This document shows, one piece after another, positions 48,063 through 50,064 of a stretch of DNA of 64,000 nucleotides; position 1 is the stretch's first letter, and each line of letters opens with the position of its first letter. The notes beneath the pieces were generated by a model, which did no database searches, was not told the origin of the DNA, and saw only the letters and a list, made by a program, of their open reading frames with translations. Position numbers and translations under genes: made by a program. The stretch comes from Stakelama sediminis (GTDB taxonomy: Bacteria; Pseudomonadota; Alphaproteobacteria; Sphingomonadales; Sphingomonadaceae): positions 806,001-870,000 of the forward strand of contig NZ_JACIJI010000001.1 in NCBI RefSeq assembly GCF_014199335.1, read 5' to 3'.

Positions 48063-48163
48063 CGTCATGCCAGCGCAGGCTGGCATCCATGTCCGTTGCG
48101 ATCATGCCGTGTCCGCGTCTTGCGCCGCGACAGCCATGGACCCCGGCCTTCGCCGGGGGGACG
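48063..48163. repeat. CGTCATGCCAGCGCAGGCTGGCAT-type intergenic repeat
   Basis: The left part has hairpin ATGCCAGC-GCAG-GCTGGCAT and the end CGTC; the right part has CATGGACCCCGGC-CTTC-GCCGGGG ending GACG. This is the common alphaproteobacterial intergenic repeat with two hairpins and CGTC/GACG ends. It fills the pntA2-pntB spacer. Confidence 0.8.
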
Positions 48164-48164
48164 C

Positions 48165-48464
48165 CTATTTCTTCGCCGCTACCGGGCGTTCCTTCTTCTT
48201 GTACATCGCCAGCATCCGCGCCGTGACCGCGAAGCCGCCGAAGATGTTGACGCTCGCCAGCACCACTGCCAGCAGCCCCAGCCATTTCGACACCGCCTCC
48301 CCCGCCGCCGCAGCCGCGATCAGCGCGCCGACGATAATCACGCTCGAAATCGCATTGGTCACCGCCATCAACGGCGTGTGCAGCGCGGGCGTCACCGACC
48401 AGACAACGTAATAGCCGACGAAACAGGCCAGTACGAAGATCGACAGGATCGCAATGAAGTCCAT
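48165..48464 (-). CDS. pntA2: NAD(P) transhydrogenase subunit alpha part 2
   Basis: A 99-residue membrane piece of the alpha subunit, split from the NAD domain as in many alphaproteobacteria. It has helices IAILSIFVLACFVGYYVVW, SSVIIVGALIAAAAAG and LGLLAVVLASVNIFGGFAVTARML with the conserved TPALHTPLMAVTNAIS. The ATG overlaps the DUF559 stop (TAATG). Its ribosome site GGGGAGG is the arm of a REP hairpin (48469-48487), so translation likely depends on ribosomes arriving from DUF559. Confidence 0.94.
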   Translation of the reverse strand: MDFIAILSIFVLACFVGYYVVWSVTPALHTPLMAVTNAISSVIIVGALIAAAAAGEAVSKWLGLLAVVLASVNIFGGFAVTARMLAMYKKKERPVAAKK

Positions 48465-48868
48465 TATTCCTCCCCGGAACGGGGAGGGGGACCGCGATGC
48501 GCAGCATCGTGGTGGAGGGGGAGTGCCGCAAACGATACAATCGCCTCAACGACTGCATCCACATCACGAAGGACGTCGACGGCGCTCACCCGAAATACCC
48601 GGAACCCGTTCTCTTCCATAAACCGATCTCGCAGATCGTCTCGTACCGGTGCAGTTCCCCGGCTATGCGCCTCGCCATCCACTTCAACAGCCAGGCGCTG
48701 ATTGAGACAGCAAAAATCGACGACATATGATCCAAGCGGGTGCTGCCGCCTGAACCGCAGTCCGGTTCTCGTACCCCGCAGACGCTGCCAGAGCTTTACC
48801 TCCGGTAAAGTCATAGAGCGCCTTAGTTGTCGAGCGGTTACAACTTCGGGTCGTAACGCAGCACGCAC
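48464..48868 (-). CDS. DUF559 protein (Vsr-like, PD-(D/E)XK-type endonuclease fold)
   Basis: A 134-residue protein read from GTG 48868. It has ARQLRRSMTLPEVKLWQRLRG, LRFRRQHPLGSYVVDFCC and LAVEVDGEAH, then RDRFMEENGFRVFRVSAVDVLRD. Asp51, Glu62 and Asp64 match the D-x(n)-E-x-D core of the DUF559/Vsr-like nuclease fold; activity is untested. The last ~18 residues (PLHHDAAHRGPPPRSGEE) are coded by the REP, and its start and ribosome site GGAGGGG come from the other REP copy. It lies inside the pnt operon and its TAA overlaps the pntA2 ATG. A longer frame from 48940 is possible. Confidence 0.88.
   Translation of the reverse strand: MRAALRPEVVTARQLRRSMTLPEVKLWQRLRGTRTGLRFRRQHPLGSYVVDFCCLNQRLAVEVDGEAHSRGTAPVRDDLRDRFMEENGFRVFRVSAVDVLRDVDAVVEAIVSFAALPLHHDAAHRGPPPRSGEE
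48468..48521. repeat. REP copy, pntA2 side of DUF559
   Basis: Two hairpins: CCTCCCCG-GAA-CGGGGAGG (48469-48487) and a 10-bp stem with GCA loop (48491-48513, one G-U), then GGAGGGGG. It holds the C-terminal codons and stop side of DUF559 and the ribosome site of pntA2. Confidence 0.88.
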
Positions 48869-48869
48869 A

Positions 48870-48917
48870 CCCCCTCCACCATGCTTCGCATGGTCCCCCT
48901 CCCCGTTCCGGGGAGGA
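48870..48917. repeat. REP copy, pntA1 side of DUF559 (inverted)
   Basis: CCCCCTCCACC, hairpin ACCATGC-TTC-GCATGGT (48878-48894), then CCTCCCCG-TTC-CGGGGAGG (48898-48916). It is the exact inverse arrangement of the copy at 48468-48521; only the second hairpin differs in length and sequence while staying paired. Confidence 0.88.
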
Positions 48918-48936
48918 TGCAGTGCGCGCGATATCG

Positions 48937-50064
48937 TCACCCCAGCAACCGCTCGTTCACGACCTTGCCATCCTTTGTCACGCGGACGCCCTGCACGATC
49001 TCATCGTCATCGGGGAATACAGGCCGCTTCGCCTCGGCATCCCAGAAGGCGGAGAGGAAGTTATAGAGGTTGCGCGCGAACAGTGCGGAGGTGTCGGCGG
49101 CGAGGCGGCTGGGCACATTGCGGTGCCCGACGATCTTCACGCCATGCTTTTCGACAACTTCACCCGCGACCGCGCCTTCGACATTGCCGCCCTGCTCGAC
49201 CGCCAGATCGACGATCACGCTGCCCGGCTTCATCGTCGCCAGTTGCGCGTCGGAAATCAGGCGCGGCGCGGGGCGTCCCGGAATCAGCGCGGTGGTGATG
49301 ACGATATCCTGTTTGGCGATGTGGCTGGAAACCAGTTCGGCCTGCGCCTTTTTATACTCCTCGCTCATCTCGGTGGCATAGCCGCCGGTACCCTCGCCCT
49401 CGATGCCCTTCACTTCCTCGACGAAGATCGGCTTCGCGCCCAGCGACTGAATCTGCTCTTTCGTCGCGGCGCGCACATCGGTGGCCGACACCTGCGCGCC
49501 CAGCCGCCGTGCGGTGGCAATCGCCTGCAACCCGGCAACGCCCACGCCCATCACGAACACCCGCGCCGCCGACACCGTACCGGCCGCGGTCATCATCATC
49601 GGAAAGGCACGGCCATATTCGGCCGCCGCGTCGAGCACCGCCTTGTATCCCGACAGGTTCGATTGGGAGGACAATATGTCCATCGACTGCGCACGCGTGA
49701 TGCGCGGCATGAATTCCATCGCCAGCGCCTCGATACCCAGCGCGGCATATTGGTCGATCCGCTCCCGCTCCCCGAACGGATTGAGGCCCGCGACCAGCCA
49801 TGCCCCCTTGCCCATGCCGGTCAGGCTGTCGGGCGACGGCCCCTGCACGCCCAGCACGATATCGGCACCCGCCAGCACTTCGGCGCGCGATCCCAGTGTC
49901 GCACCCGCCTCCGCATAGGCGGCGTCCGCGCAGGATGCGGTTTCGCCCGCGCCCGTTTCGACCGCAAGTTCCGCACCCAGCGCTGCAAATTTCTTGATGG
50001 TTTCGGGCGTCGCGGCGACCCTGCGTTCGCCGGCCGTCTGTTCTTTCAGAACCGCAATCTTCAT
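48937..50064 (-). CDS. pntA1: NAD(P) transhydrogenase subunit alpha part 1
   Basis: A 375-residue NAD(H)-binding domain I, alanine dehydrogenase-like. MKIAVLKEQTAGERRVAATPETIKKF opens it; FVMGVGVAGLQAIATARRLGAQVSATDVR is the Rossmann motif; KQDIVITTALIPGRPAPRLI and SVIVDLAVEQGGNVEG follow. It supplies hydride to the beta subunit. It begins one base after the stop of the oxidase subunit IV peptide and ends 19 bases before the DUF559 cassette. Confidence 0.95.
   Translation of the reverse strand: MKIAVLKEQTAGERRVAATPETIKKFAALGAELAVETGAGETASCADAAYAEAGATLGSRAEVLAGADIVLGVQGPSPDSLTGMGKGAWLVAGLNPFGERERIDQYAALGIEALAMEFMPRITRAQSMDILSSQSNLSGYKAVLDAAAEYGRAFPMMMTAAGTVSAARVFVMGVGVAGLQAIATARRLGAQVSATDVRAATKEQIQSLGAKPIFVEEVKGIEGEGTGGYATEMSEEYKKAQAELVSSHIAKQDIVITTALIPGRPAPRLISDAQLATMKPGSVIVDLAVEQGGNVEGAVAGEVVEKHGVKIVGHRNVPSRLAADTSALFARNLYNFLSAFWDAEAKRPVFPDDDEIVQGVRVTKDGKVVNERLLG

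Follow-up and report, generated by a model that had tools for sequence, protein, structure and literature searches.

Inverted two-hairpin REPs around Vsr-like DUF559 nuclease genes of sphingomonads: a candidate REP-nuclease system

A gene encoding a DUF559 protein, placed between two inverted copies of a two-hairpin REP, separates pntA1 from pntA2 in the window (the whole stretch of 64,000 nucleotides that was analysed). The same association between DUF559 genes and REPs recurs in other sphingomonads and is solid. We favour, with moderate confidence, the explanation that the cassette represents a REP-nuclease system of two parts, which would work by hairpin-guided cutting and repair and would parallel REPIN-RAYT.

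The DUF559 gene occupies the ~470-bp gap between the two minus-strand genes pntA1 and pntA2 (Table 1). Each REP unit is composed of hairpin 1 (CCTCCCCG-GAA-CGGGGAGG), the linker GGGGGACC, hairpin 2 and the tail GGTGGAGGGG, with hairpin 1 outermost on both sides. The arms 48468-48493 and 48892-48917 (26 nt) are 100% complementary, and a second pair of stretches (48510-48526 and 48865-48881) is 94% complementary. Terminal inverted repeats, a criterion for IS elements and MITEs, are therefore present around the DUF559 cassette. On either strand each arm folds into a pair of hairpins, with z values of -3.1 to -3.9 vs. shuffled sequences, and hairpin 2 is paired in both arms, with 17 nt on the left (GCGATGC-GCA-GCATCGT) and 11 nt on the right (ATGC-GAA-GCAT). 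This bore out the initial annotation, which had described a DUF559 gene bracketed by inverted two-hairpin REPs, a second hairpin altered in sequence and length between copies while staying paired, and a unit splitting pntA1 from pntA2. Both genes adjoin the cassette on the same strand. The start and stop of the gene, which the initial annotation had placed within the REPs, are to be read as putative: the longest ORF passes through both REPs, and the domain lies entirely between them.

Table 1. Features of the pntA1-pntA2 region (positions in the window)
Feature	Position	Strand	Remarks
pntA2, downstream neighbour	48165..48464	-	same strand as pntA1
Longest ORF with DUF559 domain	48464..48940	-	ends REP-encoded; start putative
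Left REP hairpin 1, outermost	48469..48487	+	CCTCCCCG-GAA-CGGGGAGG; pntA2 start codon 4 nt away
Left REP hairpin 2	48491..48513	+	ACC-GCGATGC-GCA-GCATCGT-GGT, then tail GGAGGGGG; GNA triloop class
DUF559 (PF04480) Vsr-like nuclease domain	48533..48838	-	profile match and predicted fold
Right REP hairpin 2	48878..48894	-	ACC-ATGC-GAA-GCAT-GGT
Right REP hairpin 1, outermost	48898..48916	-	pntA1 stop codon 20 nt away
pntA1 (transhydrogenase alpha subunit, part 1), upstream neighbour	48937..50064	-	annotated homologue: Sphingomonas parapaucimobilis plasmid

The profile search identified the protein as DUF559 (E 1.8e-30), this pnt copy being the one PF04480 match in the window's genome. Allowing up to two mismatches, the hairpin-1 pattern was found at 20 sites of this genome vs. 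2 for the reversed control. Five hairpin-1 pairs had a spacing of 98-109 nt, and the DUF559 pair had one of 429 nt. The closest pntA2 among the named relatives came from Sphingomonas and other Sphingomonadales.

The initial annotation had proposed a search for REP flanks at sphingomonad DUF559 genes, and its outcome was positive. With a repeat score of at least 18, inverted REPs flanked 31 of 36 PF04480 matches, namely all 35 matches of five single-contig Sphingomonas genomes plus that of the window, vs. 3 of 498 control ORFs from the same regions and 4 of 3,603 random positions away from DUF559. The three passing control ORFs were a GIY-YIG nuclease gene, a Pfam-less ORF between REP pairs and a 1.6-kb ORF near DUF559. 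This score was one of six cut-offs; a score of 15 gave 31/36 vs. 8/498, and a score of 25 gave 26/36 vs. 1/498. Four of the five unflanked DUF559 genes were weak partial matches (E 1.4e-10 or worse), and the fifth (G180:4473306) had, among the pattern matches listed, a type-A REP on just one of its sides. Cross-locus controls, in which the left arm of one locus was compared with the right arms of others, often scored high and provided no clean null because the loci share REP families. Hence, the association rests on the 498-ORF and 3,603-position controls, which, along with the reversed control, ruled out a chance origin of the arrangement.

When the best-scoring loci per genome were considered, 54 of 58 were flanked in the family and genus (58 of 61 loci, those with full flanks). 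In the phylum sample, 11 of 27 DUF559 loci were flanked, seven of them in other classes; 27 of 28 loci were used here, of which 26 lie outside the family (11/26 flanked) and one, the unflanked L296, belongs to this genus. The association is thus strongest in this family. The DUF559 gene ycjD of Escherichia coli had no flanking repeat (score 8) and, together with the 11/26 outside the family, indicates that DUF559 can exist without REPs, which counts against the REP-nuclease reading. Two plasmid copies in other species were REP-flanked, one in the pnt operon of S. parapaucimobilis and one elsewhere, in Sphingobium.

The REP families (A, A', B, C, D and others) differ in hairpin 1, in the linker and in the presence of hairpin 2. 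They were typed with hand-made patterns, revised after the first typing, and some were mistyped (e.g., L055 as D). On the DUF559 tree (102 rows from 108 elements, with repeated proteins, stops and short rows dropped; few columns), 78 rows carried a REP label and 24 were unlabelled owing to arms of unequal or no label or to a low score. The label changed 16 times vs. a shuffled mean of 47.7, with 0 of 200 shuffles as low, and all 24 rows labelled A or A' fell within one supported clade of 27 rows. This showed that REP family and nuclease co-diversify.

The number of REPs also followed the number of DUF559 genes. Across 101 genomes of the genus, the two counts correlated with rho 0.67 (p 1.6e-14), p values being optimistic because these genomes are related. 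The REP counts are undercounts, obtained with strict A, B and C patterns that omit A', D and other types; run backward, these patterns gave zero matches in the 101 genomes. After subtraction of two arms per DUF559, rho was 0.63 (0.54 among DUF559-bearing genomes only), and the median number of REPs was 0, 6, 13, 28 and 48.5 for zero to four DUF559 genes. The eight DUF559-less genomes had 0, 0, 0, 0, 0, 1, 5 and 5 REPs (five each in G206 and G241), and the other 93 a median of 49. Seven DUF559-bearing genomes contained five REPs or fewer; G174 and G179 had three REPs, with two and three DUF559 genes, respectively. G238 had 59 type-C REPs, the arms of its four DUF559 genes being A, A' or D, and G239 had 154 A, B and C REPs and a single DUF559 gene. 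The seven REP-poor genomes, G206, G241, G238 and G239 are counted against the REP-nuclease reading. In G153 and G246, 13 type-A inverted pairs were listed: ten measured 124-174 nt and the other three 439-481 nt; two of the latter were checked and both hold DUF559. Gene-less inverted REP pairs were also present.

We have then considered the hairpins themselves. The 61 distinct type-A units contained 44 different hairpin-2 sequences, whose stem sum was 208 vs. 109 for shuffled halves (maximum of 142 in 500 shuffles), in agreement with the selection on hairpin structure that had been proposed at the outset. In a larger later set, read on the strand starting with CCTCCCC, the central triplet was GNA in 45 of 55 odd-length hairpin-2 variants and TNC in none, and the corresponding counts for hairpin 1 were 10 of 20 and none. 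With GNA common and TNC absent, the loop sign is strand-specific. GNA triloops are unusually stable in DNA, and their prevalence here suggests that one DNA strand may be recognised. A GTAG within the 12 nt before hairpin 1 was seen in 2 of 92 type-A units, an AT end at that place in 61 of 92, and a CGTC tag in 1 of 92 type-A DUF559 REPs.

The AlphaFold2 model of DUF559 (mean pLDDT 90.3) had Neisseria NGO0050 as its best solved match (3hrl; Z 14.4, rmsd 1.6, 93 aligned). It also matched the catalytic domain of I-Bth0305I (3r3p; Z 12.1, rmsd 3.1, 96 aligned), with a sequence E value of 1.4e-4, and Vsr (1cw0; Z 10.3, rmsd 2.5, 101 aligned). In 60 sequences, R14, E21, W25, Q40, G63, H66, D75 and R78 were invariant and D49, E60 and D62 nearly so (numbering of a 117-residue fragment). 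The E, D, H and D of a Vsr-like (EDxHD) homing endonuclease correspond to the invariant E21, H66 and D75 and the nearly invariant D49. The dN/dS was 0.06-0.27 in 15 of 17 close pairs, the 15 being those that yielded a value. As judged from model and alignments, DUF559 is a Vsr-like nuclease, conserved and akin to I-Bth0305I, a homing endonuclease, and its predicted catalytic core is shown to be conserved and under purifying selection. PADLOC matches were limited to large defence proteins and were weak (best E 0.0067), and no DUF559 match was found in phages at 1e-5. Enterotoxin B chains, retrieved by the PDB sequence search at E 0.15 and above, were judged to be chance matches.

The pnt operons of relatives were compared for empty sites, as the initial annotation had advised. 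In 77 of 80 named loci both pntA1 and pntA2 were visible, with DUF559 between them in 15; L157, whose pntA1 is off contig, provided a sixteenth pnt copy. A hairpin-free gap of 30 nt or less was found in 24 of the 77 loci, and the rest contained other sequence (by reading). L187 and L199 had a single hairpin between the two genes and L184 a REP pair without DUF559, so that a solo hairpin, a REP pair, the full cassette and a short hairpin-free gap are all represented. Since hairpin 1 is palindromic, its left and right copies also read as near-direct repeats of each other, and a deletion between them would leave the arrangement of L187. Among the pnt loci and syntenic sites compared, no exact empty allele of the type-A element, against which a target-site duplication would be read, was found.

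For the 16 pnt copies, DUF559 identity followed pntA1 plus pntB identity (r 0.34; 1 of 1,000 permutations as high). This fits a cassette that would be mostly vertical, inherited in place with many losses. The mobility that had been suggested, when taken as a recent arrival at pnt, was therefore unsupported, and the fit to mostly vertical descent is counted both against recent mobility at the site and against the REP-nuclease reading. The cassette is present in some pnt loci and missing from others, which supports the initial annotation. L148 and L149 share 96% identity in pnt and 69% in DUF559, so the DUF559 gene also changes fast or gets replaced. The pnt site is occupied across several genera. 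By reading, the GGGGAGG of hairpin 1 lies at the expected Shine-Dalgarno position of pntA2, which may make such insertions tolerable. In L148, L156 and L193 the REP starts right after the TGA stop codon of pntA1, and TAA or TGA likewise precedes the L304 and L306 type-A pairs of G246.

Related genomes also have different REP families at the same intergenic sites. In G246, a stretch of 20 kb contains seven REP sites, six found by patterns and the seventh seen separately. In seven relatives, 40 of the 43 REP clusters mapped by two flanks were at G246 REP sites, clusters being non-independent through shared descent; two further clusters, mapped by one flank only, were excluded. Chance reuse of a few tolerant gaps is a possible explanation for the shared sites. 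The REP family differed between genomes at five of the seven sites (sites on L302: 1948, 10608, 12020, 17690 and 18505; syntenic loci L317-L330). At the 17.7 kb site five genomes carried type A and three carried C; the 10.7 kb site had CGTC, CACC-type or C and the 2.0 kb site A, C or CGTC, and G165 combined one B arm and one C arm at one site. The hairpins of G221 contained N at two sites. Site 12020 appeared to be empty in G221 (gap 8) and G217 (gap 0), but these were mapping artefacts and REPs are present there.

Stand-alone GIY-YIG genes repeat the DUF559 arrangement, with CGTC-type REPs. In the test, 30 of 32 matches were used, corresponding to 30 loci in 11 genomes. None of the nine loci with uvrC-sized frames (643-807 aa) was flanked, vs. 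14 of the 21 others, whose inverted repeats were of the CGTC, CGTTCG or (L248) CCCGGCGAAGGCCGGGG type. All 14 belonged to six DUF559-bearing genomes (14 of the 17 non-uvrC-size loci there), and in five DUF559-less genomes 0 of 4 such loci were flanked, L251 having a CGTC-like match with a score of 13. GIY-YIG is a homing-endonuclease fold. Examples of stand-alone flanked genes are L258 and L246 (window's genome) and L120:12701-13033. By reading, a CGTC-type REP pair is also present at 48063-48163 of the window, between pntB and pntA2, so the pnt operon has two unrelated REP families.

The reading that, in our view, would best join these facts is hairpin-guided cutting followed by copying or converting repair. 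A full element would consist of a REP, the DUF559 gene and an inverted REP (about 430-480 bp), and small, REPIN-like elements would be the gene-less inverted pairs (124-174 bp in the type-A pairs of two genomes). DUF559 would recognise the hairpin of its own family in single-stranded or extruded DNA and cut there, and repair of the break would, in a homing-like manner, copy REP pairs to new sites or convert one REP family into another. In this way DUF559 would move REPs, while its gene would stay long in place and act on distant pairs, in the way that has been suggested for RAYTs and REPINs. The REP flanks of 31 of 36 genes, the few label changes on the tree and the correlation of counts argue for such a system. 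The pairing of hairpin 2, the GNA bias, the low dN/dS, the I-Bth0305I/Vsr fold and the family turnover at sites are counted on the same side, as are the scarcity of Y1 transposases, the solo hairpin, pair and cassette states at pnt, and the plasmid copies. We put forward, more tentatively and as slightly short of an even chance, that several unrelated kinds of enzyme govern bacterial REP families. In addition to the HUH transposases, two folds of homing endonucleases, Vsr-like DUF559 and, for CGTC REPs, GIY-YIG, would each run REP families of their own; these would displace each other at common intergenic sites and form a class of REP-nuclease elements, spread by structure-guided cutting and repair in place of transposase chemistry.

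Allelic homing only, which we hold to be unlikely, would have a free-standing DUF559 cut intergenic alleles without an element of its own; same-site recombination would spread cassette and pairs, the hairpins being ends or cut sites, with no transposition. The place of I-Bth0305I among the nearest solved relatives speaks for it, as do the homing-endonuclease fold of the parallel GIY-YIG family, the 40/43 clusters at G246 sites with differing families at five of seven, the mixed B and C arms in G165 and a pnt site filled in several genera. However, REPs of one family lie at many unrelated genome sites, for which non-allelic spread is needed at some time. Less likely still is a cellular repair or protective nuclease without effect on REPs, whose gene would stay between REPs because they make good borders (terminator, Shine-Dalgarno), the REPs spreading otherwise. 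Such a nuclease predicts neither a REP family following DUF559 phylogeny nor a REP number following DUF559 number, and leaves the rarity of such flanks at other genes unpredicted, even though DUF559 does occur without REPs and, in some of the pnt cassettes, stop and start codons coincide well with the ends of the REPs. In the parts of the Caulobacter account that were available (PMC12907096), the DUF559 protein VsrA is proposed as a mismatch-repair nuclease acting in very short patch repair, which supports this alternative and is counted against the REP-nuclease reading.

We give very little credence to an unseen RAYT or other transposase moving the REPs in trans, with DUF559 as cargo. The REP pairs are REPIN-like and Y1 transposase matches occur in 11 of the 101 genomes, but the Y1_Tnp (RAYT family) profile matched neither the window's genome nor 90 of the 101, REP-rich ones such as G240 (279 REPs) included, and a RAYT origin of the REPs was rejected on these grounds. 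The initial annotation was thus right that a Vsr-like protein, and no RAYT, is found here.

REPs are widespread in bacterial chromosomes, and in the literature consulted the enzyme linked to their spread is the RAYT. REPIN-RAYT systems (REPtrons) combine short palindromic REPs, dispersed through the genome as inverted pairs, with an enzyme gene flanked by its own REP family; coexisting REP families have separate enzyme genes, and RAYT phylogeny is largely congruent with that of the species (PMC3116915, PMC3733652). The DUF559 system shares these traits. In contrast to the HUH (Y1) tyrosine transposase RAYT, the enzyme here is a Vsr-like nuclease, and the type-A units lack the GTAG tag almost throughout and have two hairpins with GNA loops. 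The CGTC-tagged alphaproteobacterial REPs also form inverted pairs and, as far as the source (PMC3733652) was available, have no known transposase; unlike them, the type-A DUF559 REPs are untagged, and CGTC-type REPs flank GIY-YIG genes here. I-Bth0305I shares the catalytic fold and a weak sequence relation, but its PDB chain bears the name of a mobile intron protein, whereas the ends here are palindromic REPs. VsrA shares the DUF559 domain and Vsr fold, yet the neighbours here are pnt genes and not a methyltransferase, and the available parts of the VsrA account mention no REP flanks (PMC12907096). Among the matches listed for open PMC papers, no report joined DUF559 or GIY-YIG genes with REPs.

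If the REP-nuclease reading is true, REPs in RAYT-less genomes would be accounted for by a second dedicated enzyme, and perhaps by a third, and DUF559, a family of unknown role, would gain a job. It would also bear on the CGTC REP question, left open in 2013 in the available parts of PMC3733652. Nucleases that read hairpins by loop and stem would be structure-guided cutters of practical interest. As a minor observation on the distribution of the genes, pairs of DUF559 genes ~4.5 kb apart recur in G165, G187, G205, G221, G240 and G246, perhaps as a conserved double site.
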